A stretch of 64,000 bases of DNA from a virus, in the IMG/VR virus record IMGVR_UViG_3300042447_000151, positions 1-64,000 of that record. One strand, 5' to 3'. Of this stretch, positions 1 to 45,475 are shown in pieces; positions within the stretch are counted from its first letter, which is position 1; the number at the start of each line of letters is the position of its first letter. The position numbers and the translations under genes were made by a program. The notes below the pieces were generated by a model. The model saw nothing but the letters and a program-made list of their open reading frames with translations. It searched no databases and was not told the DNA's origin.

Positions 1-56
1 TTTTAATTAATCACCTTATACGCAATAATTCTAACTTAAAATCTTAAACAAAAATA

Positions 57-1190
57 CTAAAATATATTCACTAGTCTTGCAACTTGGCCATTCTCTTTGT
101 GGTGTATGAATCCCTCAACCGCTTTAGGTGCGTGTTGATAGCCATTTCTATGGTGCCATGAATCGGTACCACTGGGAGATCGGAGAGACTCGACGCAAAC
201 GCCCATATAATCTTTAGAAGACTTGTGATGCACATGGTGAGTATATACGTAACGGTGTTTGGAGTCTGCCCACTCCTTGCTTGCTTCATGAGCCATTAAT
301 AAAGGTAAGTCTTGAGTCTTCGCACCATCGCCATGCGTAGTCCCAATTAAATTGTTTCCATATTTTGTATACTTTCTGTGTGCGATAGAACAATCAAATG
401 TAATGTTGGGGTTGTTATGGAACCAAGACTCAATAGCATCAGCTAAAAAGAAACCATTAGTGTAGTCGTGGTTTGATGGATTGAACACAAAGTGAACGTC
501 GGCAATACTAATGAGCATTTCGATGACGTCGATATATAGCTTCTTAGCGACTCTAAAGTTGTCGTACCACATTCCATCTGTATCTTGTGGAGTTCCGCCA
601 GTAGTCGTACGCTTTGGCGTGTCTATATGAAGGATGTCATTGCCACCTACAAAAAGAATCTTGTCGATGTTAAACCCTGATGCTTTTTGAATAATACCAC
701 GTACACCATCAAGTACACGCTGAACAGCGATGTGATTATTGTAGTCATCTCCAGTCTCAAACGAGGAGGCCAACTTACCGATGTGAATGTCGGCTGGGTC
801 AACTACTAACAGGTGACCATCTTGATTGTTGTTACGATCTAACTTAGGGTATACAGGTGCGTGCTTTTGCATCTCAGCCACGATGTCCGCTCGCATATCA
901 TGATAGGCTTCTATCGGGTCTTTCTTGTCAACCTTAACAAATATAGAATGCTTGTCTGTTTTTAGCCAATAGTGCGACACCTCACCTGCGGGTGCACCTT
1001 GCACATCACACTCATCACTGAGGCTCTTGTGCTCTATCTTTAAAATGTATGCGGATATTTTCTTGCGAAGAGTCTCTACGTTGCGGTCGTGCATATTGTA
1101 GTGTTCCTGTACTCTTTTAGCAATCTCAGCTTTATTAAGGTCTCCCTGCTGGTGTAGTTCTAGTGCGTATTCTAGGTAAGGTTTCATCAC
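57..1190 (-). CDS. Calcineurin-like metallophosphoesterase
   Basis: A 377-residue protein with a calcineurin-type phosphoesterase domain in its C-terminal two thirds. Visible metal-binding motifs in order are DIHIGK (D134, H136), GGND (about 182-185), NPSNHD (about 238-243), THGDG (about 285) and a THHVHH cluster (about 316). The N-terminal 50 residues look like a helix-turn-helix (KAEIAKRVQEHYN) and may bind DNA. The family is related to SbcD/Mre11 nucleases and to phosphodiesterases, so a role in DNA end processing or nucleotide recycling is plausible, but the substrate cannot be read from sequence. It is the last gene of the leftward block seen here. Its start lies inside the 3' end of the small gene 1135-1341 (56 bp overlap), suggesting coupled translation. 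Confidence 0.8.
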   Translation of the reverse strand: MMKPYLEYALELHQQGDLNKAEIAKRVQEHYNMHDRNVETLRKKISAYILKIEHKSLSDECDVQGAPAGEVSHYWLKTDKHSIFVKVDKKDPIEAYHDMRADIVAEMQKHAPVYPKLDRNNNQDGHLLVVDPADIHIGKLASSFETGDDYNNHIAVQRVLDGVRGIIQKASGFNIDKILFVGGNDILHIDTPKRTTTGGTPQDTDGMWYDNFRVAKKLYIDVIEMLISIADVHFVFNPSNHDYTNGFFLADAIESWFHNNPNITFDCSIAHRKYTKYGNNLIGTTHGDGAKTQDLPLLMAHEASKEWADSKHRYVYTHHVHHKSSKDYMGVCVESLRSPSGTDSWHHRNGYQHAPKAVEGFIHHKENGQVARLVNIF

Positions 1191-1341
1191 GTAATTGATT
1201 TAATTTTTCGATTAGAATGTAAATGGAATCCTGAAGGTCTTCGTACTCCTTGTCCATAAGAGCCTCATATATCTCATCCGTCATCTTATTGATGAATCGA
1301 ATTGTTGTGTTAGTATAGTCAATATGCTCTTTCATAAACAA
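1135..1341 (-). CDS. Small hypothetical protein, 68 aa
   Basis: I do not recognise this protein. It is 68 residues, with an acidic helical core (EALMDKEYEDLQDSIYILIE) that could form a short coiled coil, and a basic R/T-rich tail (RIRTRTTPAGRP). The tail is encoded in the 56 bp that overlap the downstream phosphoesterase gene and may be shaped by that overlap. It lies directly below a strong hairpin terminator (1345-1378) that separates it from nrdA, so it needs its own promoter or read-through. Confidence 0.5.
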   Translation of the reverse strand: MFMKEHIDYTNTTIRFINKMTDEIYEALMDKEYEDLQDSIYILIEKLNQLRDETLPRIRTRTTPAGRP

Positions 1342-1344
1342 ATA

Positions 1345-1378
1345 AAGGGGAAGTGTAAAACGATAAACACCTCCCCTT
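1345..1378 (-). terminator. Intrinsic terminator after nrdA
   Basis: On the minus strand a 12-bp stem (AAGGGGAGGTGT pairing with ACACTTCCCCTT, one G-U pair) encloses a 10-nt loop and is followed by a U-rich stretch (TATTTGTTT). It lies about 75 bp after the nrdA stop codon and before the next leftward gene, where a terminator is expected. Read on the plus strand the stem has an A-C mismatch and no T-run, which supports minus-strand use. Confidence 0.75.
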
Positions 1379-1451
1379 CAAAAAATTATCACTTTAACCT
1401 TTGTAAATTTAGTTAAATATCTAATTACTTGTATATTTTTAATAAAAAATT

Positions 1452-3215
1452 TTAACCATCGCAAGATAAGCAATCAGGGTCGGTTGCACGTGTAGCAATA
1501 TCAGCACGTAAAACAGACTCAGTACGCATGTAGTACAATGTTTTGATGCGTTGTCTCCAAGCCTCCATGTGTACCTGATTAATCCATTTAGGTGTAGCCT
1601 GAGATGGGAATGCTAGATTCAATGAAACAGATTGGTCGATGTACTGCTGACGAATACCTGCCTGCTTAATTAATTCTAATTGGTTTATCTCCTTAAATGT
1701 TTTGAATACATCCTTAACTGGAATGTGGTCATCGCCCTCAGGATTCTCTGTCAACTTACCGTTCACATAGAACCAATTATCTAGCTCAGGTATATCTTGG
1801 ATTGATCCACCATCGGCAAGAATCTTATCCCATATCTCTCTAGTGTTAATGCCAATCTTCTTTAGCACTTTCTCAAGTTCTTTGTTCTTGCGAATGAATG
1901 TACCCTTAGCTGATTGGTCTGTAAATACGTTAGCCGCCCAAGGCTCAACACCAGCTGATACGTTACCACTTAGCTTAGAGTTAGATACCGTGGGAGCAAT
2001 AGCACGTAAGTGGGTGTTACGCATCCCTGTCTCTACGCACCATAGTGGCTCACCATATTCAGCGGCCATGTCACGTGATGCACGCTCAGACTCAATCTTA
2101 ATCTGAGAGAATATCTTACGTGTTTCAAACTGAGCAAGCAGTCCTTCAAATGGGATGCCTTTCTGCTGTAAGTATGTATGCCATCCAAGTACACCTAGGC
2201 CAATAGCACGACCTTTCTCAGCGAAGCGAACTACATTCTCGAAGCCTTTCATGTTCTTAGCTTTTTGGATGAACTCCTCTAGCACACCATCTAGGAACCA
2301 TGTAGCTACATATATTAAGTCTGTGTCTTTCCACTCATCGTACTTAGCTAGGTTGACTGATGACAGGCAACAAACAAAGCTATGGTTTTCATCTGTGTGC
2401 AATACAATCTCAGAGCAGATGTTGGTCATGTATACCTTCAAGCTATTCTTCTTGTATGCCTCAGGGTTCTGCTTATTAACGTTGCCTTTGAACATAATGT
2501 ACGGCTCACCTGTGGCCTTACGCTTCTGCAGTAACTTACCCCACTTACGACGTGCATCCACATCCCCATCTTCTAGCTTACGCATAAACTTATCGCCCAC
2601 CACAGCACATTGGTGTAGGTTCAAGCACTGACGATTCACATCCCCCTTAGGCTCACGAATCTCTAACCAATCCTCAAAGTCTTTGTGCTCAATGTTTAGG
2701 TTACTCGATGCCGCACCACGACGGACATTGCCCTGTGATGTTGCAAGAATAGTAGAGTCAAATATCTTACTGAATGGGATAACACCATCAGACGTACCGT
2801 TCTTAGATATCTTTGATCCTGCAGGACGGATGCGGTTAAAGCCTACACCCACTCCACCACCATGCTTGGCTAGTAGCATCATCTCTAGGTTCTTAGTTCC
2901 AATATCAAACACTGAGTCCTCAATGTCAATACCATAACAAGAGATAGGCAAGCCTCTGTCTGTGCCTGTGTTAGATAGCACAGGTGTGGCTAGGTTTAAC
3001 CATCCATTCCAAATGTATTGGAAGAACTTGTCAGCCAGCTCAGGCTTGCCAAGTCTATCAGCTACGGCACGAGACACACGTGCGTATGCATTAATTGGTT
3101 TCTCCCCTGCAAGCAGGTATCCACCTGAGATTGTCTTTACGTATTCGGGTGAGTTACCCCAAGCTGGGAAATCTACATCTAGTTCCCATCCTAGGCTCTC
3201 TGCGTGATTAATCAT
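1452..3215 (-). CDS. nrdA: Ribonucleoside-diphosphate reductase, alpha (large) subunit
   Basis: The catalytic subunit of a class I ribonucleotide reductase, which makes deoxyribonucleotides for phage DNA synthesis. Visible residues are C93 in LPISCYG, the active-site N-x-C-x-E motif in TNICSEI (near residue 265), a further Cys in FVCCLSS, the radical-transfer tyrosine pair in LYYMRTES, and the C-terminal redox pair in CLSCDG. At 587 residues it is shorter than most bacterial NrdA proteins (about 750). The protein starts close to the barrel domain, so the N-terminal ATP-cone for dATP inhibition is absent, as in many phage enzymes. The nrdB gene lies about 1.3 kb upstream in the same operon, separated by a methyltransferase and small genes. 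A terminator follows at 1345-1378. Confidence 0.95.
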   Translation of the reverse strand: MINHAESLGWELDVDFPAWGNSPEYVKTISGGYLLAGEKPINAYARVSRAVADRLGKPELADKFFQYIWNGWLNLATPVLSNTGTDRGLPISCYGIDIEDSVFDIGTKNLEMMLLAKHGGGVGVGFNRIRPAGSKISKNGTSDGVIPFSKIFDSTILATSQGNVRRGAASSNLNIEHKDFEDWLEIREPKGDVNRQCLNLHQCAVVGDKFMRKLEDGDVDARRKWGKLLQKRKATGEPYIMFKGNVNKQNPEAYKKNSLKVYMTNICSEIVLHTDENHSFVCCLSSVNLAKYDEWKDTDLIYVATWFLDGVLEEFIQKAKNMKGFENVVRFAEKGRAIGLGVLGWHTYLQQKGIPFEGLLAQFETRKIFSQIKIESERASRDMAAEYGEPLWCVETGMRNTHLRAIAPTVSNSKLSGNVSAGVEPWAANVFTDQSAKGTFIRKNKELEKVLKKIGINTREIWDKILADGGSIQDIPELDNWFYVNGKLTENPEGDDHIPVKDVFKTFKEINQLELIKQAGIRQQYIDQSVSLNLAFPSQATPKWINQVHMEAWRQRIKTLYYMRTESVLRADIATRATDPDCLSCDG

Positions 3216-22052: not shown

Positions 22053-23609
22053 ATGATAGTAAAAGATATCGTCTTCGGAAGTGAAGGCAGACAGAAATTA
22101 ATCAAAGGCGTAAATACCATAGCTAACGCTGTGGGCTCAACACTAGGAGCTCGTGGTCGCACGGTGCTCATTGAGTCGGAGCAACACATTGGGGGTATCA
22201 CGGTCACTAAGGATGGAGTGACGGTCGCTAAGTCAATTAACTTAATGGACCCAGCTGAGAACCTAGCGGTCATGATCATGCGAGAAGCATCTGAGAAGAC
22301 TGCCAACTCGGCAGGCGATGGCACGACGACTAGTATGGTGCTGGCACAAGCCATCATCCATGCGGCAACAGGGGTGCTAACTAAAGAAGACAATACCACA
22401 CAAGTATTAAGAGATGTGCAGGCTGCAGCATTGCGTGTCGCAGATGAGCTGACGGCTATGTCAACAGAGATTACATCAGATAAGTTGGTCGATGTCGCAA
22501 CTATATCCGCTAATGGCGACGCAGAGATTGGACAGATTATCGCTGATGCGTACAATCAAGTTGGTCTATCAGGCGTGGTGACAGTAGAGAGTTCTGCTAC
22601 CGCTGAGACATACGCTGAGGTGGTGAGCGGGATGAAGGTGGACAGAGGGTTTGCAAGTAAGTACTTTGTAACAGACCACAAGAAACAAGAGGCCATCTTA
22701 GATAAGCCATACATATTGGTCACTGACCAACCCATTACAAACATCAACGACATCTTGCCTATTCTTGAGTTTATACACCAGGGCAGAGGCTCGCTATTGA
22801 TCATTGGTGAGTTGGATGAGAATGCGCTAAATACTCTTAACGTGAACAAGATAAAGAGTGGTCTAAAGGTGTGCACAATTATCCCCCCATCATTTGGCTA
22901 CAAGCGTCATCAGATCATGCAGGACATAGCAATTGCGACGGGTGCTAAGTACTTCTCGGAGCAGACTGGTGACAACTTGCTAATGGCGACCATTGACGAC
23001 TGTGGACGGGCTAGTAAGATTGTCAGCTCTCGCTTCAATACAATTATCTTCGATGCAGAGGGTGCAGGCGAGGAGAGAGTGCAAGAGCTACACGAGCAGT
23101 TAGACGTGGAGACAAGTGCAATCGAGAAAGAATTCTTAAAAGAACGCATCGCTAATCTAGGCGGTGGCGTGGGTGTCATTAAGGTGGGTGCTAACTCAGA
23201 CATTGAGCAGAAAGAGAAGAAGGACCGGGTGGACGATGCGGTGTGTGCAGTACGTGCAGCACTAGAAGAGGGCATCCTGCCAGGTGGTGGGGTGGCTCTA
23301 AAAGACATCGCTGCTAAGATGGATGAGAATAACAAAGGTGATGAGATACTGCGACTAGCGATGGTGGCACCAATGATGCGCATACTAGCTAACGCTGGGA
23401 TCGACGTGACTGGTGAAGACTTTGACCAGGGACAACAGTTGTCAAAAGAGGGACTAGGCATAAACGTTGCAACAGGGGCCTACTGCCACATGATGAGCGT
23501 TGGGATCATTGACCCGACCAAGGTGACTAAAGAAGCACTAAAGAACGCGGTGTCAGTAGCAACTACATTGCTATCCACAGAGACGGTTATCACTAACATT
23601 CGTGCATAA
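22053..23609 (+). CDS. groEL: Chaperonin GroEL (Hsp60)
   Basis: A 518-residue group I chaperonin subunit. Nearly full-length conservation is visible: VTKDGVTVAK with the ATP-site Asp near residue 54, AGDGTTT near 88, the AALEEGILPGGGVAL equatorial segment, and DPTKVTKEALKNAVSVA near the end. It ends STETVITNIRA and lacks the Gly-Gly-Met tail of bacterial GroEL, as seen in some phage chaperonins. It probably forms a folding chamber for virion proteins with the phage groES product at 23814. Its codons look GC-richer than the late genes, possibly a trace of separate acquisition. A TTG-N20-TAAATTTG promoter precedes it. Confidence 0.95.
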   Translation: MIVKDIVFGSEGRQKLIKGVNTIANAVGSTLGARGRTVLIESEQHIGGITVTKDGVTVAKSINLMDPAENLAVMIMREASEKTANSAGDGTTTSMVLAQAIIHAATGVLTKEDNTTQVLRDVQAAALRVADELTAMSTEITSDKLVDVATISANGDAEIGQIIADAYNQVGLSGVVTVESSATAETYAEVVSGMKVDRGFASKYFVTDHKKQEAILDKPYILVTDQPITNINDILPILEFIHQGRGSLLIIGELDENALNTLNVNKIKSGLKVCTIIPPSFGYKRHQIMQDIAIATGAKYFSEQTGDNLLMATIDDCGRASKIVSSRFNTIIFDAEGAGEERVQELHEQLDVETSAIEKEFLKERIANLGGGVGVIKVGANSDIEQKEKKDRVDDAVCAVRAALEEGILPGGGVALKDIAAKMDENNKGDEILRLAMVAPMMRILANAGIDVTGEDFDQGQQLSKEGLGINVATGAYCHMMSVGIIDPTKVTKEALKNAVSVATTLLSTETVITNIRA

Positions 23610-33668: not shown

Positions 33669-36600
33669 ATGGCGAGAATACAAACCTACCCCAATGATAT
33701 ATTTGTTACCGGAAACGATAAGTGGATAGGTAGCGACGCTAACAACGACTTCATAACCAAAAACTTTACAGCCAACGCTGTAGCGGAATACTTCAATCGT
33801 GTAGGTATTATTGATACAGGTAGTTTTAATTGGTCATACAGAATGTATGCACCGACAGAATCTCAGCCTGCTAAGACGTTTGAGTTAATTGACCATCCAT
33901 TTGATACGGTAGATGTAATTGGACTCGCAGGAACCATCAAGGTTTCTTTCTTAACCATGGCCAACACAGAGCCTGGTATATTCATTGAAGAAGTTTGGAA
34001 TGACAAGATTATTCTTGTTAATCGACCAGGATTCCCTAGTGAATACGGACTATACAAAGTAACATCTGTCGTTGAAGATGGCGATTACTATTTCTTAGAC
34101 TTAGATTTTATTGGTGGTAACTCAGGAACTATTTCTGAAGACGAGCCGGTTACATTTGGCTTATTCACAGGCGTGAGTGGTACAAGTGGTACTACAGGTA
34201 CTTCAGGTACAAGTGGTACGACAGGTACATCAGGCACTAGTGGTACAGATGGCACAAGTGGTTCATCAGGTACTACAGGCACATCAGGTTCTTCAGGAAC
34301 AGATGGTACAAGCGGTTCATCAGGCACAACAGGTACATCAGGCTCATCAGGAACAGGTGGTACATCAGGCACTAGCGGAACGAACGGTTCAGGTGGTACC
34401 TCAGGTACACGTGGTACGTCAGGTACGTCAGGTATTGATGGTATCGACGGAACAGACGGTACGTCAGGCACGAGTGGCACAGACGGAACAGGAGGGACTA
34501 GTGGTACTACAGGAACTAGCGGTACGTCAGGTATTGACGGAACTAGCGGTTCAGGTGGAACTAGTGGAACTAGTGGAGTTAACGGTACATCAGGTACAGG
34601 AGGAACAAGTGGTACAGATGGTACTGGCGGTACTTCGGGTACAGATGGTACGGGTGGCACAAGCGGAACTTCAGGATCTAGTGGCTCGTCAGGTATTGAT
34701 GGTACTTCAGGAGTAAATGGTACCTCAGGTATTGATGGTACTAGTGGGTCTAGTGGATCTTCAGGAGAGTCTGGTACTTCGGGTACTACAGGTACATCAG
34801 GATCATCTGGTTCGTCGGGTTCATCAGGATTAACAGGATCATCAGGTACATCAGGTACTAATGGTACAGGTGGTACGTCAGGACAAAACGGTATAGCAAC
34901 AGGTAGAATTTATTATTTAAACTACTCTCAAGCTGGCTCTGTTTCTCCTTACAAAAACCTATCTGAAACACCAACTTCTTTATTAACTCCGTCTACTGTA
35001 CCTGTTTCATTAGCAGGCAATCAAGATAATGTATTAGTAGCTCAATTTATCACAGAAGAGTTAGGCTTTACTATTATACCTTCAGGTGTACAAAGATTTA
35101 CACTAGAATTCCTTAAGCAAAGTGAGGGGCATGATTTGTCTACTTATGTATTAATTCAGTTTACAGAAAGCGACGGAACGCCTATTGGTTCACCTGTAAG
35201 TACAAATACTTCTCCATTGCTATGGGTAGATAACACAACTCCTACTAATACTTATGTTGATGCGGTATTCCCGACTACGCCTATTGACCCAACATGGAAA
35301 GTATTAATTAGTTTATATGCAAACAATAATGATGCTGGTTCTAGAAATATTACTTTTTACACAGAAAACGCTGAGTACTCTTATGTAATCACATCAATAG
35401 GATTTGAGTCGGGAACATCGGGTACGGCAGGCACAAGTGGTGTTAACGGTACTAGTGGTTCATCAGGTCTTACAGGTTCATCAGGAACTAGCGGAGAATC
35501 GGGTACTAGTGGCACCTCAGGAGCTGACGGTACTAGCGGAGTAAGTGGTACGTCAGGCGTGAGTGGTACATCAGGAGTAGATGGTACAAGCGGTGTTAGT
35601 GGTAGCAGTGGCACAAGTGGGGAAAGTGGTTCAAGCGGAAGTTCAGGAGCAAGCGGCACAAGTGGAGTATCAGGTACGTCAGGTATTAACGGAACCTCAG
35701 GTGTTAACGGTACTAGTGGGGTTAACGGTACATCAGGCACTTCAGGTGTGAACGGAACCTCAGGATCATCAGGAACAACTCCAGTTGGTCAGATTACAGG
35801 TACGCTAACAACTAATACAATACCTAAAGCTACAGGTACTAATACAATTGGTAATAGTATTATAACTGAATCATCAGGCTCAATTACTGTTTCAGGTGCT
35901 GCTGTCGATAACTACGTTGCTAGTTTTATTAACACTGATGGAGGCTCTGCGGGTATATATGTGAAGGCAGATGGCCCTGCATTTGTTTGCGAGCCATTGT
36001 CATTGGTTGGAGGAATAACTCTAAACTCAGATGGTTCAGCTTCATTTAGTGGAGACATTACTGCTAATAAATACATTAAAGTAGGTGGTACATCCTCTCA
36101 GTTCTTAATGGCTGATGGCTCTGTTTCAACAGGTCCTGCAGGTGGGATTACAGGTTCGTTGACTACAAACTTTATTCCTAGAGCAACAGGTACAACTACA
36201 TTAGGAAATAGTACTCTACAAACAGATGCTTCAGGTGATTTAGGATTAGGAGTTGCACCAAGTGCAGGTGGATTAAGTGGGTATTCTTTATTTGAAATAG
36301 CGAATGGTGGTGCATCAATTTATGCCGGTGCTAATCAATCTTTATGGGGGACAAATATAGCTTGGAATGTAGCAACACCAAATTATAAAACTAGCAGTTT
36401 TGCAACTGTTTATAATCAACAAAGCGGTCAACATATTTGGTACACAGCTGCATCAGGTACAGCAGGTGGAGCTATTAGTTGGTCACAACCAATGACATTA
36501 TTTGCTAATGGAAACTTAGCAGTAGGGCCAACTACCGATGCAGGATACAAACTTGATGTTAATGGTACAGTTAGATTTGTTGGACCACAAGGATATTCTA

Positions 36601-38837
36601 ATGGATTAATACTTCAAAATACAAGTACATTTGCAGGCGCAATTACTGCATTAACAATACAAGCAAATACAGATGGTTATCCTATTATTGAATTTAAAGA
36701 AGGAAGTAACCAAAAATGGCAAATTTTTAATGATTTTGATAATGATTCATTAATTTTTTACAAATGGGTAGGAACTGCATCTACTGTATTGTCATTAGCA
36801 TCCACAGGAGCAGCTACGTTTACAAGTAGTACATTTAGTGTTGCAAGATTTAACTCTACGTTTGGCCAAGTTAATATTGATTTTCAAAATAGCGGAACAA
36901 CTTTTGCAAGTATAGGTTCAGGTGTATCTGTTTGTTCAACTGCTGCTGCAGATGATACAGGTATTGGTACTGCAGGTTTAAATAAAAGTATAGTGTTTGC
37001 AACAGGTACTAGTTATTTAGAACGTATGCGGATTACTAGCGCTGGCAACGTAGGAATTGGAACAGCTACACCAACAGGAACATACGGCAAACTATCTGTT
37101 GCAGGAGGAATTAGTTTATTAAATGATAATAATGGTAAATTAGAAATTGGCAGATATTCAGCAAGTATTACAAGTTCATACATTAAAATAGGTTCATCAA
37201 GTTTTAATTTAAACATTACTAATAATACTGACACAGCTGATATATTTACTTTTACAAATGCAGGTTCATTTGGCATTAGTAATCAAAGTCCTGTAAATAC
37301 AGCTTGGGGAAATGAAAATAATACAAAACAATTATCAATTGATGCGACAGGGTATGCAGTTATAAATTTACAAGGTGCAACATCTCGCAAATATTCAATG
37401 GGTGTTGGTGATGGTTATTTTTATATGTGTTATGATAATACAGCAGCACGTCACAATATAACAGTTTCTCCGGCAGGTAATGTGACAATTAATGGAACAG
37501 TAGACGCAGGCTTTAAACTTGATGTAAATGGTACGGGTAGGTTTAGTGGAAAAGTTACAACTACTGGCCCTGCGAATGATTGGGGGTTAGTAGTCAATGG
37601 GAATACAACTCTTGGACAATCTTATGGGGCTAATATAATAGCTGGCTCTAATTCAAGCGATGTTGCATTTTTAATTTCTAATTATGTCGGAGGCGATATT
37701 TTAAGAGTTTTAGGCACAGGAGCAGCCACGTTTTCGAGTAGTGTTACATCGAGTAGTGTTACATCGGGGGTGTATGCAGGTTCTGCATTGAATTATATAA
37801 ATAATACTGACATTGCTTTAACTACAAGGAGATACACAGCTACTCAATCTCGTACAAATAATGATTTAGGAACAGTAGGACTAGATTTAACAAATACACA
37901 ACCAACAAATGGCGTTTATTCTCCTGTTATTTCATTCAGTTCAATTACTAGCGGCAATGTTTATAACTGTACATATGCAGCTATTTGGGGTCAAAAAACA
38001 ACAGATGAAGGAAGTTGGGCGGCAGGAGATTTAATTTTTGGTACTGCTAATCCTTATGGTGTTACGCAAAGAATGAGAATATTAGCAAACGGTAATGTCG
38101 GAATAGGTACTCCTACTGTAGTCAATGCTATTAGCGGAACAGAAACGGTTTTAAAAATATCAAATACTAATGCAGCTTCGTTGTATTTAGAATCAACAAC
38201 CGCCGGCAGAACATATGCAAACTTTGTTGGTGCAGCAGGTCATTTGTCTTGGTATGATACAACTGCAGCTGATACAAGAATGATGATTAGGTCAAATGGC
38301 AACGTCCTAATAGGCACTACAACAGATAATGGTGCAGCTTTATTACAAATAGGTAGTTCATCAAGTACTAAAATTTCATTAACAGGAGGTTCCGTTCAAA
38401 ATGGTATGCGTTGGGAAAGCGTAGCCACAGCAAATGCATTTTATTTATTTAATGGAAACTTTGGTCCGGGTCCGGGTTGGGGACTTTATAATATTTCAAC
38501 AGCGGGATTACCATTTTGGATTCAAAATTCCGGTGCAGCAACATTTAGTTCATCAGTTACGGCAACATCATTCTTTGAAAGTTCTGATGCTACAATCAAA
38601 ACATTAATTGAAGACAACTATCAAACCAAAGGTATTGAATCTGTAACAGCTAAGTTATACACTAAGAATGGCAAAGAAGAACTTGGATACTTTGCACAAG
38701 ATGTACAAGGAATACTACCTAGTGCAGTAACCAAAGGAACAGATGGATTATTGAGTCTTTCATATCGTGAGGTGCATACTGCTAAGATTGCAAGATTGGA
38801 GAAAGAGTTGGAAGAACTAAAAGCAAAATTGAACTAA
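33669..38837 (+). CDS. Tail fibre with G-T-S collagen-like repeats and S74 chaperone
   Basis: A 1,722-residue fibre, the largest complete protein here. Residues 1-160 are a head domain. Residues about 165-408 and 580-703 are collagen-like repeats of Gly-Thr-Ser type (GTSGTSG) separated by a globular insert. The rest is a shaft with recurring GNVGIGT and AGFKLDVNGTGRFSG units. The C-terminus is a Peptidase S74 intramolecular chaperone: catalytic S1639 and K1644 in SSDATIK, five residues apart as in the endosialidase chaperones, so release by self-cleavage before S1639 is expected. Low complexity and Ser/Thr richness suggest glycosylation by the enzyme at 39887-41926. Confidence 0.85.
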   Translation: MARIQTYPNDIFVTGNDKWIGSDANNDFITKNFTANAVAEYFNRVGIIDTGSFNWSYRMYAPTESQPAKTFELIDHPFDTVDVIGLAGTIKVSFLTMANTEPGIFIEEVWNDKIILVNRPGFPSEYGLYKVTSVVEDGDYYFLDLDFIGGNSGTISEDEPVTFGLFTGVSGTSGTTGTSGTSGTTGTSGTSGTDGTSGSSGTTGTSGSSGTDGTSGSSGTTGTSGSSGTGGTSGTSGTNGSGGTSGTRGTSGTSGIDGIDGTDGTSGTSGTDGTGGTSGTTGTSGTSGIDGTSGSGGTSGTSGVNGTSGTGGTSGTDGTGGTSGTDGTGGTSGTSGSSGSSGIDGTSGVNGTSGIDGTSGSSGSSGESGTSGTTGTSGSSGSSGSSGLTGSSGTSGTNGTGGTSGQNGIATGRIYYLNYSQAGSVSPYKNLSETPTSLLTPSTVPVSLAGNQDNVLVAQFITEELGFTIIPSGVQRFTLEFLKQSEGHDLSTYVLIQFTESDGTPIGSPVSTNTSPLLWVDNTTPTNTYVDAVFPTTPIDPTWKVLISLYANNNDAGSRNITFYTENAEYSYVITSIGFESGTSGTAGTSGVNGTSGSSGLTGSSGTSGESGTSGTSGADGTSGVSGTSGVSGTSGVDGTSGVSGSSGTSGESGSSGSSGASGTSGVSGTSGINGTSGVNGTSGVNGTSGTSGVNGTSGSSGTTPVGQITGTLTTNTIPKATGTNTIGNSIITESSGSITVSGAAVDNYVASFINTDGGSAGIYVKADGPAFVCEPLSLVGGITLNSDGSASFSGDITANKYIKVGGTSSQFLMADGSVSTGPAGGITGSLTTNFIPRATGTTTLGNSTLQTDASGDLGLGVAPSAGGLSGYSLFEIANGGASIYAGANQSLWGTNIAWNVATPNYKTSSFATVYNQQSGQHIWYTAASGTAGGAISWSQPMTLFANGNLAVGPTTDAGYKLDVNGTVRFVGPQGYSNGLILQNTSTFAGAITALTIQANTDGYPIIEFKEGSNQKWQIFNDFDNDSLIFYKWVGTASTVLSLASTGAATFTSSTFSVARFNSTFGQVNIDFQNSGTTFASIGSGVSVCSTAAADDTGIGTAGLNKSIVFATGTSYLERMRITSAGNVGIGTATPTGTYGKLSVAGGISLLNDNNGKLEIGRYSASITSSYIKIGSSSFNLNITNNTDTADIFTFTNAGSFGISNQSPVNTAWGNENNTKQLSIDATGYAVINLQGATSRKYSMGVGDGYFYMCYDNTAARHNITVSPAGNVTINGTVDAGFKLDVNGTGRFSGKVTTTGPANDWGLVVNGNTTLGQSYGANIIAGSNSSDVAFLISNYVGGDILRVLGTGAATFSSSVTSSSVTSGVYAGSALNYINNTDIALTTRRYTATQSRTNNDLGTVGLDLTNTQPTNGVYSPVISFSSITSGNVYNCTYAAIWGQKTTDEGSWAAGDLIFGTANPYGVTQRMRILANGNVGIGTPTVVNAISGTETVLKISNTNAASLYLESTTAGRTYANFVGAAGHLSWYDTTAADTRMMIRSNGNVLIGTTTDNGAALLQIGSSSSTKISLTGGSVQNGMRWESVATANAFYLFNGNFGPGPGWGLYNISTAGLPFWIQNSGAATFSSSVTATSFFESSDATIKTLIEDNYQTKGIESVTAKLYTKNGKEELGYFAQDVQGILPSAVTKGTDGLLSLSYREVHTAKIARLEKELEELKAKLN
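34163..34890 (+). repeat. Collagen-like GTS coding repeat, first block
   Basis: Within the fibre gene about 240 codons encode Gly-X-Y triplets, mostly Gly with Thr/Ser, and only occasional Asp, Asn, Ile or Val. The DNA varies at third positions, so it is a protein-level repeat and not a CRISPR or satellite. Length variation by recombination between units is likely. Confidence 0.85.
35407..35776 (+). repeat. Collagen-like GTS coding repeat, second block
   Basis: A second run of about 124 codons of Gly-X-Y, again Thr/Ser-rich, after a 170-residue non-repeat insert. Its units are like those of the first block (GTSGVNGTSG). It ends where a new, non-repeat shaft begins. Confidence 0.85.
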
Positions 38838-38838
38838 T

Positions 38839-39273
38839 ATGTCTTGGGCAGGTTTAGCAAATAATCAATGTGTTAGTTGGGCAAATTTACAAAGTGCTGT
38901 AGATAATAATGTGTTTATACAGATTGGATTAATACCTCCACCGGGCATCCCTAGTAATAGGGAGATAACAAAAACAGGTGCATTATCAGCGGTTGATATC
39001 GAAGCAGCTCCATTAGCAGGCAAGAGTAATAATCAGCTAGTGGTAAAGAGTAATTTAGTTGCTACTCCTGCTACTTACTATCAGCTTAATAACTGCTCAG
39101 GTGGTGCTGCTGCGTGGACAAAGATTGCTCCTACATTAGGAGTAGGACAAAGATATGTATTGCCTAGTGGCAGTCCTGTGTTTTATACTTATAATGGGAT
39201 TAGTCAAACTACTCTACCTGCAGGGTACAACGGATCAATACAAATAGTATCAGGACAAACAGGTTGTCCGTAA
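38839..39273 (+). CDS. Fibre-associated protein sharing a C-terminal module with the nozzle protein, 144 aa
   Basis: A 144-residue protein 1 bp after the fibre gene. Residues 1-80 include a repeat-like start (MSWAGLANNQCVSWANLQ). Residues 83-144 match the last module of the 1,373-residue protein at 52930-57051: both have YYxLxxC, then RYVLP, FYTY, a YNGSIQI segment and a final CP. The shared module suggests a receptor or glycan-binding knob, or a fibre attachment unit. The gene is probably a fibre tip or adaptor. Confidence 0.55.
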   Translation: MSWAGLANNQCVSWANLQSAVDNNVFIQIGLIPPPGIPSNREITKTGALSAVDIEAAPLAGKSNNQLVVKSNLVATPATYYQLNNCSGGAAAWTKIAPTLGVGQRYVLPSGSPVFYTYNGISQTTLPAGYNGSIQIVSGQTGCP

Positions 39274-39303
39274 AAATTAGTAATTTTAAAAAAAAATATA
39301 TAA

Positions 39304-39636
39304 ATGAAAAACATCGAAGCAGTCTCAATTTGGGACAATGGCACAGTACAGCAAGCAACTATCTTAAATGCTTATGCAGTTAATGTAACCTTAAACACAT
39401 CTGCTACTTTTTGGTACGGGTTATTTTCTACAACAGAAAATGGTAATGTAGGGGCACAACTTGCTCAAGGTAACTTAAATATGACAGGCGAGGCTTATGC
39501 TGAATGGCAGAGTGACGTTTTTGCTTGGGATTGGATTGCAGAGCAATTAAACCTAACTATTACAGGAGAGTATGTACCTCCGGTACCTCCTGAGCCGATT
39601 GTAGAAGAAGTTGCATCTGAAGAACCTATTGCTTAA
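39304..39636 (+). CDS. Hypothetical protein, 110 aa
   Basis: I do not recognise this protein. It is 110 residues, with a beta-rich body (VSIWDNGTVQQATILNAYAV, then SATFWYGLFSTTENGN) and a Pro/Glu-rich tail (YVPPVPPEPIVEEVASEE). Small proteins of this order follow fibre genes in Bacteroidota phages as I recall. It may be a fibre chaperone or tail accessory. Confidence 0.5.
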   Translation: MKNIEAVSIWDNGTVQQATILNAYAVNVTLNTSATFWYGLFSTTENGNVGAQLAQGNLNMTGEAYAEWQSDVFAWDWIAEQLNLTITGEYVPPVPPEPIVEEVASEEPIA

Positions 39637-39658
39637 ATTTGTTAAAAATAACATAAAT

Positions 39659-39928
39659 ATGAAACTAAACTTTAATTTTAATCTAACCGATTTAGACGGT
39701 AAAGAACTAGAAGGTGCTAATTCTGGAAAGTTATTAGCTAACACACTTATTCAGCAGACCAAGGGTGATGCTGTAAAGTATTGGGAATGGGCTCTTGCTT
39801 TAAACAAAGGCGAAGTTCTTGACCTAGACACATCGGATCAAGATACTCTTAAGGCTTTTGTAAAAGACAGTGAGACTATTACTGTTTTAGCTAAGGCCCA
39901 ATTGCTTGGCGTTTTTGCTAAGAAGTAA
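39659..39928 (+). CDS. Hypothetical protein, 89 aa
   Basis: An 89-residue protein (start at 39659, MKLNFNFNLTDLDGKELEG; the frame opens at 39611 inside the preceding gene). The second half (DTLKAFVKDSETITVLAKAQ) is helical. The order beta-hairpin then helix resembles small proteins near the end of phage fibre operons. Its last 42 bp overlap the 3' end of the glycosyltransferase gene on the other strand. Confidence 0.5.
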   Translation: MKLNFNFNLTDLDGKELEGANSGKLLANTLIQQTKGDAVKYWEWALALNKGEVLDLDTSDQDTLKAFVKDSETITVLAKAQLLGVFAKK

Positions 39929-41926
39929 TATTACATCATCAGCAGATATACTCCTCTGACACTCAAAATGTCGAGGAGTATTCTTAAAGATGGGACACCA
40001 GTCCCAATCACCTGCATCGAATTTAAAGTTAGGGTTGTTCCAACAACTGTTGCACACTGACTTATTAGTCACACGTATACACTCAAACTCGTGGTCATCT
40101 GCAGCGAAGTTATTTATCATAACTACTTGTTTGCCTAGAGCATTTGCTAACCAAGATACGCCTGAACCCAAGCCTAGGTAAAATTGACTATGGTGAATAA
40201 TAGCCATTGTCTTTTGGATGTCATAATTAATAATTTGCTCACAGTTGTCAAACGGGTTAGGCTCAAGTGATACATTAATTACTTTGTAGCCTTTCTCGTG
40301 CAAAAAGTTTATCACTCCTTGCCATCCTTCTTTTGTCCAGAACTTACAGCCTGATGTAGAGTTGGTAGCTATCGTAACATATTTACCATAGTTATTATTA
40401 CCTGGCTCATACTTTAACTTAGGCTTAATCTCTTTGAAATCAAGGCCAAGTATTTTGGTAGCTGCCTCTTGTAATTTAATTGTGTTAGGTAGCTCAGGTT
40501 CTTTGTTTGAATCATAGAACCAACCAATGTTATATTGAGCGTAGATGTTAGGAACCACAGTACCAGGTTCTACTAACTCTATCTTAGGCATGTCCAGTAT
40601 TTTATTTAAAAAGGTGGACATAATTACTTTGCACTTATGTTTCTTTTGAAACTCTAAAGCATATGGAGCCCAAGCAATTGTGTCGCCTAATGATTTACTA
40701 GATAAAGCGATGTACACTCGTTTACCTTCTAGGTCGAGTACGTTATGGTGTATGAGCTCATCGTTCATGAACACCTTGCTCTCCCATTTAGTATAGTATT
40801 GTCTGTTTAGTTTGACCCAACTATTTGATCCGATAGTATTCTCGTAGACCAGCTTCTCGCCATCAAAGTATTGCACCTTAAAGTCTGCTTTCAGTCCCGA
40901 CTTAATTTCTAGGTATGGTTGACCAACAAAGTGTTGGATGATTTTAACATCTTGTTCTTGTTTGTCTAGTCTCATTACTTTGTTGTAGAATGCGATTTGC
41001 TTCTCCCAAAATATTTGCGAAGTATTATCTGTAGGTACAATGTAATTACATCGCACAGAGTTTAAGTCTGTGCCGATAGGTTGAATGTATTCGCTAAACA
41101 TTGAACCATACTGTGGTAGGTTATGTGCGATGATTGGTTTACTAAAAGATATGGCTTCACGCAATACTAATGGATTGCACTCCCACGTAGAATTGAACAT
41201 AAAGATATCTGCCATCTTAATGAACCTGTGTGCATCATTTCTCTCCAACCACACGTGAACATTAGATGGCAAATCCTTCATTAATGGCTCCCAGTAATGC
41301 TTAAAATTAATAGCTTGGTTTCCGATAAAATGAAAGTCCATATCAGGATACTTTCTAGCTATCTCAATCCCCTCAGCTTGATTCTTACCAGGAGTCCAAA
41401 GACCTACGTTGACTACGTTTATTTTGTTTGTATAAAAAGGGTTATCATACGTCTCACTTGTTCTGTCATCAATTGGGAACTCAATCACTTCTTTGTAAGA
41501 TGGCGATGAAGCGAATGTCTTTAAGTGATATGGCGTGCAGAAGTAATACGCATCAGGATGAAATATCTTTTCCTTGTCGTGGTTAAACGACACGTCGTGA
41601 CACGTCTCCACGATTCGGTAGCTCCGGTCCTCACGATACAACTCAGAAATCATATCACGATTAAATCGCTCAGACGGCTCGTGAATGTGAACAATATCAG
41701 GATTGAATTTTGCGATGATGTTAAATAACTCCATCTTGTCCTCGTGCAGAGTGTGAAACGGAACTAACTCCTTGATTGCATTTCTTTGCACGACATAGTC
41801 TAAGCTATGGCATTGATACTCTACTACCTCAATCTCGAATGTCTTGTAAAGAGTTTGAACACTCTTTAAAACAAAACCGGGCATTCCTCCAGTTGAGCAA
41901 TGTGGAATTAAGTATAGTAGCTTCAT
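39887..41926 (-). CDS. GT4 plus TibC-like heptosyltransferase fusion
   Basis: A 679-residue bifunctional glycosyltransferase. The first about 340 residues are GT4-like: LIPHCSTGGMPGFVLK at the N-terminus, PDIVHIHEPS, VVNVGLWTPGKNQ, and NPLVLREAISFSKPIIAHN. From about 345 the protein matches autotransporter O-heptosyltransferases of the TibC/Aah type (the DFKVQYFDGEKLVYENTI beta-unit, VYIALSSKSLGDTIAWAPYA, and GWQGVINFLHEKGYKVI). It ends with the cysteine-rich iron-binding region (CNSCW, DWDWCP, FECQ). It is one of two minus-strand genes in the right arm, beside the fibre operon. TibC enzymes modify Ser/Thr of repeat adhesins, so the fibre repeats are the obvious substrate. Confidence 0.75.
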   Translation of the reverse strand: MKLLYLIPHCSTGGMPGFVLKSVQTLYKTFEIEVVEYQCHSLDYVVQRNAIKELVPFHTLHEDKMELFNIIAKFNPDIVHIHEPSERFNRDMISELYREDRSYRIVETCHDVSFNHDKEKIFHPDAYYFCTPYHLKTFASSPSYKEVIEFPIDDRTSETYDNPFYTNKINVVNVGLWTPGKNQAEGIEIARKYPDMDFHFIGNQAINFKHYWEPLMKDLPSNVHVWLERNDAHRFIKMADIFMFNSTWECNPLVLREAISFSKPIIAHNLPQYGSMFSEYIQPIGTDLNSVRCNYIVPTDNTSQIFWEKQIAFYNKVMRLDKQEQDVKIIQHFVGQPYLEIKSGLKADFKVQYFDGEKLVYENTIGSNSWVKLNRQYYTKWESKVFMNDELIHHNVLDLEGKRVYIALSSKSLGDTIAWAPYALEFQKKHKCKVIMSTFLNKILDMPKIELVEPGTVVPNIYAQYNIGWFYDSNKEPELPNTIKLQEAATKILGLDFKEIKPKLKYEPGNNNYGKYVTIATNSTSGCKFWTKEGWQGVINFLHEKGYKVINVSLEPNPFDNCEQIINYDIQKTMAIIHHSQFYLGLGSGVSWLANALGKQVVMINNFAADDHEFECIRVTNKSVCNSCWNNPNFKFDAGDWDWCPIFKNTPRHFECQRSISADDVILLLSKNAKQLGLS
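39948..39981. terminator. Long hairpin where convergent genes meet
   Basis: ATACTCCTC and GAGGAGTAT (39948-39956 and 39973-39981) form a 9-bp stem, extended inside by GACA/TGTC with one unpaired base and a 7-nt loop. It lies 20 bp after the plus-strand gene's stop and inside the 3' coding end of the glycosyltransferase. It lacks a T-run, so it may be a weak bidirectional terminator or RNA-processing structure. I rate the terminator label low. Confidence 0.4.
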
Positions 41927-43000: not shown

Positions 43001-43265
43001 GTTAAAGAAACGCATCATTGACTCTGGGTATAAAGCCGTTGAGGAGTTAATTAAGGTTGCTGAGGAAAAGATTGTCACCCATATGGATGATGACTTATCT
43101 GCAGACAAACTTAAGAACGCAGCGGCAGCAAAGAAATTAGCTATCATGGATGCTTTTGAGATTCTTAAAAGAGTCGAAGAGGAGAATAATATTATTGAGG
43201 GAGTAGTTGGAAACTCTGCACCTACTAACCGTGGGTTTGCAGAACAAAGAGCAAAGACTAAATGA
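42984..43265 (+). CDS. Possible small terminase subunit, 93 aa
   Basis: A 93-residue helical protein immediately upstream of terL (4-bp overlap). It begins NKITELKKRIIDSGYKAVEE and continues with DLSADKLKNAAAAKKLAIMD, DAFEILKRVEEENNI, and an NSAPTNRGFAEQRAK tail. Position, size and helical character fit a TerS, but no helix-turn-helix is evident. Treat as tentative. Confidence 0.5.
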   Translation: MNKITELKKRIIDSGYKAVEELIKVAEEKIVTHMDDDLSADKLKNAAAAKKLAIMDAFEILKRVEEENNIIEGVVGNSAPTNRGFAEQRAKTK

Positions 43266-45475
43266 GTTTATTCTATATTGATGAGTCTACCGTTCCTGAG
43301 AAAATTCTTGCAAAAAGAAATGCAAAGAAAGATTGGGAGTATGGTTGGGACCCTGAGTACGACTTTGTGGTCGTGTCCAAAGATGGCACGATTGGAGAGG
43401 TCTATAATATCAGTGGGCTAAGAGTTGCCCTGCCATTAGCTCCCGACAATGTTGACTACGATGGCAACAAGTGGAAAGCTACAGAGCTACCTAAAGAACT
43501 ATCTCGCATCAAGACCATCTTTGATTGGAACCGTCGTGACAATTCATTTAAGTCTCAATGGGTAGACTACATCGAGAAAGAGTTTGATAGACGTGAGTTG
43601 GGCTATTGGTTTATCAATAATAGTGAAAAGACTTACATCACAGGTGCACATTATATGTACTTACAGTGGTCAAAGACCGACGTAGGCCACCCTGACTTCC
43701 GTGAATCAAACAGGATATTTTTTATATTTTGGGAAGCGTGTAAGGCTGATAGTAGATGCTTTGGCATGTGCTACCTTAAGAACCGTCGTTCAGGTTTCTC
43801 ATTTATGGCTTCATCAGAAGCTGTCAACATTGCAACTTTAGCTAAGGATGCTCGTATAGGCTTGACATCTAAGACAGGTCCCGATGCAAAGAAGATGTTT
43901 ACCGATAAGGTAGTTCCGATTGCAAATAACTATCCATTCTTTTTTCAACCTGTGCGTGACGGTATGTCTGCTCCAAAGACAGAACTTGCATTCCGTGTTC
44001 CAGCTTCTAAGATTACTCGCAAGAATATGCACGAGGAGAACGAGGAAGAGATTGACGGATTGGATACAACTATTGACTGGCGTAACACAGCGGACAACAG
44101 TTATGATGGAGAAAAATTGTTATATTTGGTTGAGGATGAGGCTGCTAAGTTAGAGCGTCCTATGAACATAGAGAACGGTTGGCGAGTAAGAAAAACTTGT
44201 CTTCGTTTAGGGGCCAGGATTATTGGCAAGTGTATGATGGGTTCAACATCAAACGCACTCGACAAAGGTGGAGAAAACTATAAACGGATTTACTATGACT
44301 CAAACGTCAAGAAAAGAAACCAGAATGGTCAGACTATATCAGGTCTATATTCGCTCTTTATCCCGATGGAGTATAACTTTGAGGGATATATTGACGAGTA
44401 TGGTCACGCAGTCTTAGAACGACCTGAGAAGCCTGTACGTTCAGCAGAGGGGACTTGGATAACGCAAGGGGTAATTGAGTATTGGAATAATGAAGTTGCA
44501 TCGCTAAAGGCTAATCCTGATGCACTAAATGAATTCTATCGTCAGTTCCCTAGAACAGAGTCACACGCTTTCCGTGATGAGACCAAGTCATCTTTGTTTA
44601 ACTTGACTAAAATCTATCAGCAGATAGACTATAATGATAGCTTAGTTCAAGACCACGTCATAACACGTGGCTACTTTCACTGGGCTAACGGAGAGAAAGA
44701 CACCAAGGTTATTTGGACTCCTGATAAGAACGGTAGGTTCTTAGTGTCTTGGATACCAGGACCGGGAGTGAACAATAATTATATTACTAAAAATGGGAAT
44801 AGATATCCGGGCAATGAGCATATTGGTGCGTTTGGTTGTGACCCCTACGACATCTCAGGTGCGACCTTTGGTGGATCAAACGGTTCGCTCCACGGATTGA
44901 CCAAGTTTAATATGACAGGAGCCCCATCCAATACTTTCTTTTTAGAATACATTGCTCGTCCACAGACAGCAGAAATATTCTTTGAAGAGGTGCTGATGGC
45001 TTGTGTGTTCTATGGCATGCCTATACTTTGCGAGAATAACAAGGCACGTCTTCTTTATCACTTTAAGAACAGAGGCTACCGTGGGTTCTCAATGAACAGG
45101 CCCGATAAGCCAGCTCACAAACTATCATTCACAGAAAGAGAGATTGGTGGCATACCATCATCAAGTGAAGACATTAAGCAGGCACACGCTACAGCAATCG
45201 AGACCTACATCGAGCGTTTTGTGGGATTAGACATGGAGGGTAACTATCGTCAGCCTGATGAGATAGGAGATATGCCGTTTAATAAAACACTTCAAGATTG
45301 GGCTAGATTCGACGTAAATGACAGAACAAAGTTTGATGCGTCAATTAGTTCAGGGTATGCTATTATGGCAAATCAAAAGCACGTATATTTGCCTGAGAAA
45401 AAAGAGTCAAAAATAAGCATTAAATTTGCAACTTACGATAACACTGGTTCCTTCAGTAGAATTAACAAGATATGA
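43262..45475 (+). CDS. Terminase large subunit
   Basis: The 737-residue DNA-packaging motor and nuclease. The ATPase has an unusual Walker A-like segment (CYLKNRRSGFSFMASSEA, about 172-189) and a Walker B-like LYLVEDEAAKL (about 289). The nuclease part has an acidic strand HIGAFGCDPYDISGATF (about 525), a QTAEIFFEEVLMACVFYG segment and CENNKARLLYHFKNRGYRGF. The order is right for TerL, and the portal gene follows directly (4-bp overlap). The non-canonical P-loop lacks the last GKS/T but keeps a Lys-Asn-Arg-Arg-Ser-Gly run, as seen in some TerL families of this host group. Confidence 0.85.
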   Translation: MSLFYIDESTVPEKILAKRNAKKDWEYGWDPEYDFVVVSKDGTIGEVYNISGLRVALPLAPDNVDYDGNKWKATELPKELSRIKTIFDWNRRDNSFKSQWVDYIEKEFDRRELGYWFINNSEKTYITGAHYMYLQWSKTDVGHPDFRESNRIFFIFWEACKADSRCFGMCYLKNRRSGFSFMASSEAVNIATLAKDARIGLTSKTGPDAKKMFTDKVVPIANNYPFFFQPVRDGMSAPKTELAFRVPASKITRKNMHEENEEEIDGLDTTIDWRNTADNSYDGEKLLYLVEDEAAKLERPMNIENGWRVRKTCLRLGARIIGKCMMGSTSNALDKGGENYKRIYYDSNVKKRNQNGQTISGLYSLFIPMEYNFEGYIDEYGHAVLERPEKPVRSAEGTWITQGVIEYWNNEVASLKANPDALNEFYRQFPRTESHAFRDETKSSLFNLTKIYQQIDYNDSLVQDHVITRGYFHWANGEKDTKVIWTPDKNGRFLVSWIPGPGVNNNYITKNGNRYPGNEHIGAFGCDPYDISGATFGGSNGSLHGLTKFNMTGAPSNTFFLEYIARPQTAEIFFEEVLMACVFYGMPILCENNKARLLYHFKNRGYRGFSMNRPDKPAHKLSFTEREIGGIPSSSEDIKQAHATAIETYIERFVGLDMEGNYRQPDEIGDMPFNKTLQDWARFDVNDRTKFDASISSGYAIMANQKHVYLPEKKESKISIKFATYDNTGSFSRINKI

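Follow-up and report, generated by a model that had tools for sequence, protein, structure and literature searches.

The window analysed here is a 64 kb stretch out of a 67,688-base virus record (IMG/VR record IMGVR_UViG_3300042447_000151). It contains a GT4-TibC fusion gene on the minus strand, located between a collagen-like tail fibre gene and the gene for the large terminase subunit (Table 1). The fibre and enzyme genes are convergent and separated by a gap of 1.05 kb; three small genes lie between them, and the two that were scanned yielded no significant family match. Elsewhere, the phage encodes a GroEL-like chaperonin (22053-23609, plus strand; phrog_5725) and the large subunit of a ribonucleotide reductase (1452-3215, minus strand; phrog_84). 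Among phages in the collection, those with a related terminase infect Flavobacterium, Cellulophaga, Tenacibaculum and Maribacter, and the host is therefore likely a member of the Bacteroidota.

Table 1. Features of the fibre-enzyme locus. Positions are those of the window; residues are numbered within each protein.
Feature	Position	Strand	Evidence or remark
Collagen-like tail fibre gene, 1722 aa; proposed acceptor	33669..38837	+	Pfam Collagen 1e-40; PHROG tail-fibre families
First G-T/S-S repeat block, residues 168-410	34170..34898	+	Repeat composition
Second G-X-S/T repeat block, residues 582-704	35412..35780	+	Repeat composition
Possible Peptidase_S74 fibre-chaperone domain, residues 1639-1688	38583..38732	+	17.9 bits, below the Pfam cut-off of 22
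Three small genes between fibre and enzyme	38839..39928	+	Last one overlaps the enzyme 3′ end
GT4-TibC fusion gene	39887..41926	-	Intact ORF, ATG start, 679 aa; coordinates include the stop codon
TibC/Aah-type O-heptosyltransferase half, residues 333-675	39902..40930	-	TIGR04414 240.8 bits; profile envelope 333-675; Foldseek 4rap
Iron-finger Cys625/628/644/656 (TibC Cys339/342/358/370)	39959..40054	-	Invariant in 79/79 viral members reaching the columns
Asp415, equivalent of TibC catalytic base Asp110	40682..40684	-	Invariant in 80/80 viral members reaching the column
GT4 half, approximately residues 1-330	40937..41926	-	Pfam PF00534/PF13692 above cut-off; Foldseek MshA/BshA
GT4 EX7E motif, E249-E257 (ECNPLVLRE)	41156..41182	-	E249 invariant, E257 nearly invariant in 17 family members
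Large terminase subunit, marker for control phages	43262..45475	+	phrog_6681 E 5e-169

The earlier note on this DNA had described the minus-strand gene as a GT4 half joined to a half with the motifs and C-terminal Cys cluster of TibC/Aah enzymes, and profile searches recovered both. In particular, Pfam Glycos_transf_1 matches residues 161-279 (E = 8e-10; PF00534, 38.9 bits against a cut-off of 26.4) in the half that keeps the EX7E motif. NCBIfam TIGR04414 (hepto_Aah_TibC), whose family title is 'autotransporter strand-loop-strand O-heptosyltransferase' Aah/TibC, matches residues 353-667 above its cut-off of 200 bits, whereas LPS heptosyltransferase families score far lower on the same half. 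The C-terminal half comprises a beta-barrel, a catalytic domain and an iron finger, the last formed by the Cys cluster, and aligns to crystallised TibC (PDB 4rap) with an E-value of 1e-40. The note had also staked its reading on a TibC fold in this half, and an AlphaFold model of the fusion protein (mean pLDDT 82) displays that fold together with its active-site set; the top Foldseek matches are the TibC chains 4rap and 4rb4 (E = 1e-24, TMt ~0.75-0.79), followed by GT4 enzymes such as MshA and BshA.

In TibC, Asp110 is the catalytic base, Thr226, Lys230, Trp305 and Arg286 bind the donor, and Cys339/342/358/370 hold the iron of a finger that serves in protein recognition and dimerisation (PMC4358343). 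Asp110, Thr226, Lys230, Trp305 and the four Cys are invariant across the viral relatives that reach these alignment columns and, judged from sequence, both halves of the phage enzyme look active. Differences accompany this conservation. The position of Arg286, which contacts N1 of the adenine, is Thr in 75 of 79 viral members (in a wider alignment, the fusion clade has Thr there, whereas several others have Val or Ile); the Pro300 position is Ser or Gly in viral members; and the beta-hairpin thumb is deleted in the fusion clade, with its tip (Phe265/Val266) falling in a gap in 81/81 fusion members. A longer segment at the thumb position is kept by E. coli TibC, by Lentisphaeria genes and by some other viral members. 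The TibC thumb joins dimers into a dodecamer, within which folded beta-helix passengers are recognised; because the thumb is missing from the fusion clade, this ring architecture probably does not carry over to the phage enzyme.

The fibre's G-X-X runs total ~366 residues, mostly G-T-S triplets, in agreement with the earlier count of more than 350 Gly-Thr-Ser repeat residues about 1 kb from the enzyme. Within the first block, Thr predominates at position X and Ser at position Y; the combined Ser and Thr content reaches 51% and 43% in the two blocks, compared to 22% elsewhere in the fibre. V-P-L-V-P antisense ORFs are also present in the window. No autotransporter was recognised among the scanned window genes; the enzyme's neighbour is the collagen-like fibre. 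Thr-rich G-X-X repeats with O-glycans are found in Bacillus BclA and in giant-virus collagens, although these involve other enzymes in other organisms.

A search for the fusion in other phage genomes, as the earlier note had proposed, uncovered a widespread family: at least 111 IMG/VR stretches encode relatives in one scan, and nearly all of the 80 fetched have the full GT4-TibC fusion. Roughly half carry ~300-750 additional N-terminal residues, which in the members scanned contain FkbM or other methyltransferase domains, a polysaccharide pyruvyl transferase, Glyco_transf_25 or unmatched sequence. Further, APS kinase and sulfotransferase genes, each forming one family, occur at 17 fusion loci each, or about one-fifth of the relatives. 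At four loci (L009, L013, L017 and L019), a small ORF of 224-262 aa that resembles a homing endonuclease (GIY-YIG type by eye) sits as an insertion at the 3′ end of the enzyme gene; behind it, the last 20-34 codons of the gene occur a second time, as though the insertion had brought along a tail of its own.

Only four records of the phage GenBank collection match, in the TibC half, and one of these is the isolate Microcystis phage Mel-JY01. Its 1226-aa protein, annotated as 'methyltransferase FkbM', contains GT4 and TibC domains, and a GTS-repeat ORF lies near the enzyme on the strand opposite to annotated hypothetical genes, so that the isolate has the same pairing. At positions 1-3050 of its record (PP395634.1), minus-strand hypothetical genes are annotated where the plus strand is an open GTS-repeat ORF; since the window too shows V-P-L-V-P antisense ORFs, this annotation is likely a wrong-strand call over the repeats. 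The fold search also returned two viral proteins of the same kind that had been deposited earlier, A0A7S9XE01 (Virus NIOZ-UU157; 54% identity within the aligned region) and A0A6J5SVC1 ('Glycosyltransferase Aah/TibC', uncultured Caudovirales phage); they bear generic names only, and no described function was found for them. A search of mainly open-access literature on phage TibC, Mel-JY01, fibre glycosylation and phage ADP-heptose found no published description of the pairing. The pairing is not restricted to this phage: the family is widespread, and similar proteins are on deposit.

Recent capture from a host was considered and rejected as the main story. Only one of 395 Bacteroidota genomes, the seed genome itself, scored above the TIGR04414 cut-off, and a genome scan yielded no more than 11 loci (27-38% identity), of which two have GTS repeats adjoining the enzyme. 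The rare TibC-family genes on three Bacteroidota MAG contigs (L656, L657 and L667) lie in ~780-aa ORFs.

Across the viral family, the enzyme repeatedly occurs with Ser/Thr-repeat genes. Whole-record searches used a DNA pattern that encodes three G-T-(S/T-like) triplets. GTS repeats were present in 38 of the 44 records with the fusion, compared with 0 of 34 phage records that share the terminase family but lack the enzyme; many of these 34 are fragments, and TIGR04414 was likewise absent from all of them. The comparison has a Fisher p of 3e-16, which is a guide rather than an exact probability because the contigs are related to one another and Fisher values overstate their independence. Six fusion records lack the strict pattern: three have T-P-T mucin-like repeats (L068, L069 and L077), one breaks off directly after the enzyme (L044), one has only a GTS fibre fragment at the record edge (L026), and the sixth shows a G/S/T-rich ORF that is weaker (L075). 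The earlier note had named homologues lacking any Ser/Thr-repeat fibre as the observation that would make the pairing accidental, and none was found where the record was long enough.

The converse comparison was blind to the enzyme: viral records were picked by four GTS triplets, with longer contigs taken among the matches listed, and one of the 39 records so obtained was already in the family set. Among the matches listed, TIGR04414 exceeded its cut-off in 18/39 GTS-picked records, in 0/38 records picked by proline-type collagen (GxP) triplets and in 2/36 records picked by a random 14-mer, the latter two being the only random records with GTS repeats. After length adjustment, the excess of GTS-picked over random records, again among the matches listed, was 6.3 versus 1.1 per Mb (p = 0.005). 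Both comparisons support the proposed pairing of enzyme and fibre. About half of the GTS-repeat records among the matches listed showed no TibC enzyme, and fibres of this kind may therefore occur in its absence. T-P-T repeats were rejected as an equal marker, with the enzyme found in 3/45 T-P-T-picked records among the matches listed, and their link to the enzyme is at most suggestive. Long T-P-T mucin-like proteins of ~660-1100 aa, each with ~190-330 Ser and Thr, lie near the enzyme at five loci (L068, L069, L076, L077 and L078).

We consider it probable that the fusion protein O-glycosylates the repeats of the phage's own fibre, with the TibC half priming and the GT4 half extending the glycan. 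Phages assemble in the cytoplasm, and in the proposed mechanism a cytoplasmic two-enzyme protein would modify the fibre's Ser/Thr-rich G-X-X repeats as virions assemble or earlier. Its TibC half would attach the first sugar directly to Ser/Thr, probably heptose from ADP-heptose, and the GT4 half would extend it; in relatives, the methyltransferase, pyruvyl transferase, APS kinase and sulfotransferase modules or neighbours would decorate the glycan. The product would be a stiff, protected fibre, covered by a glycan that stiffens and shields it. The earlier note had left the GT4 half as either extending or priming; because TibC-type enzymes are known to place the first sugar on Ser/Thr, the extending role is more likely and priming less so. 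Bacterial autotransporter heptosyltransferases (BAHTs) such as TibC act in the cytoplasm and transfer heptose onto Ser/Thr (PMC8151025). The missing thumb, the change of Arg286 to Thr and the lack of ADP-heptose genes in the window phage count against fibre glycosylation.

The donor sugar is where another reading retains the most weight. A TibC half that uses a nucleotide sugar other than ADP-heptose, placing a different sugar on the fibre by the same mechanism, is possible though rather doubtful. The substitutions at the Arg286 and Pro300 positions would fit such a donor; however, the true heptosyltransferase AAH itself has Ser at the Pro300 position (PMC4358343), and the donor-binding Thr226, Lys230 and Trp305 do not vary. 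Moreover, HldD/HldE-like genes adjoin the enzyme in five relatives of the same clade (L051, L053, L054, L056 and L062), and loss of Arg286 was therefore rejected as proof of a non-ADP donor. The best families of this trio are ADP-heptose epimerase (TIGR02197), heptose-7-phosphate kinase (TIGR02198) and heptose-1-phosphate adenylyltransferase (TIGR02199), as identified by profiles on members of L051, L053 and L062 and by homology in all five; the scores are below the curated cut-offs, hence the name 'HldD/HldE-like'. A small HAD phosphatase accompanies the trio, and the co-localised genes point to ADP-heptose. The compact cluster beside the enzyme in these five relatives comprises the trio, the HAD phosphatase, a cupin, an APS kinase, a sulfotransferase and a GT9-like gene. 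For the window phage, where homology comparison found no ADP-heptose genes, supply by the host is plausible because 69 of 118 sampled Bacteroidota genomes have an HldE adenylyltransferase above cut-off; the many sampled genomes that have none would suit a different donor.

It is improbable that the enzyme instead acts on LPS, capsule or an adhesin at the surface of the host, changing the receptor or blocking superinfection, with its proximity to the fibre a coincidence. GT9-like heptosyltransferases generally act on LPS, and phage glycosyltransferases are known to alter host serotype (PMC12619734), yet the closest family of the C-terminal half consists of protein O-heptosyltransferases rather than the lower-scoring LPS enzymes, the gene sits between fibre and terminase genes in the window, and the association tracks Ser/Thr-repeat virion-like genes across unrelated phages. 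Phage glycosyltransferases can also glycosylate hypermodified DNA (Pyle et al. 2024, as cited in PMC12619734), but DNA or another phage component as the acceptor, with the GTS fibre merely common in the same phages, is very improbable given that TibC uses its iron finger for protein recognition and dimerisation (PMC4358343) and that, among the matches listed, the enzyme is absent from GxP-repeat records and rare in random ones.

Compared to known systems, the fusion enzyme most resembles the BAHTs (TibC of ETEC and Aah; TIGR04414; 4rap/4rb4), with which it shares the fold, the N-terminal beta-barrel, the catalytic Asp, the Thr/Lys/Trp donor residues and the four-Cys iron finger. In contrast to these, it is encoded by a virus, its TibC part is fused C-terminally to a GT4 enzyme with more modules in relatives, it has no thumb, Thr replaces the adenine-contacting Arg, and it presumably acts on a collagen-like or TP-rich repeat protein instead of a beta-helix autotransporter. 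As the BAHT profile matches above its cut-off while the thumb and Arg286 are absent and the presumed acceptor differs, the phage protein is, from its sequence features, best called a new viral, fused BAHT variant. Mycobacteriophage virion proteins also bear glycans, at the C-termini of capsid and tail-tube proteins (Freeman et al. 2023, as cited in PMC12619734); PMC12619734 mentions neither a fused TibC/GT4 enzyme nor a repeat fibre there. The GT4 half shares the GT-B fold and EX7E motif with retaining GT4 enzymes (MshA, BshA and RfaG-like), but differs from them in being joined to a protein O-glycosyltransferase.

To our knowledge, protein O-glycosylation of phage fibres has hardly been described, and the TibC-type enzyme family is known only from bacterial adhesins. 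The results suggest an overlooked, widespread phage route to sugar-coated fibres. Overall, we lean towards the view that a modular assembly line for protein O-glycans is common to tailed phages from several host groups and is dedicated to Ser/Thr-repeat (collagen- or mucin-like) virion fibres. Its core would be GT4-TibC, frequently accompanied by methyl, pyruvyl or sulfate modules and in some cases by an ADP-heptose supply of its own. The system is compact enough to be studied with one gene and one fibre fragment, and one phage isolate carries the pairing. If this assembly line exists, its products would form a large and so far undescribed group of glycoproteins from viruses of bacteria; many uncultured phages would carry heavily glycosylated adhesion fibres made by an adhesin-type enzyme family, which would bear on host range, fibre stability, antibody recognition and the annotation of low-complexity fibre genes.
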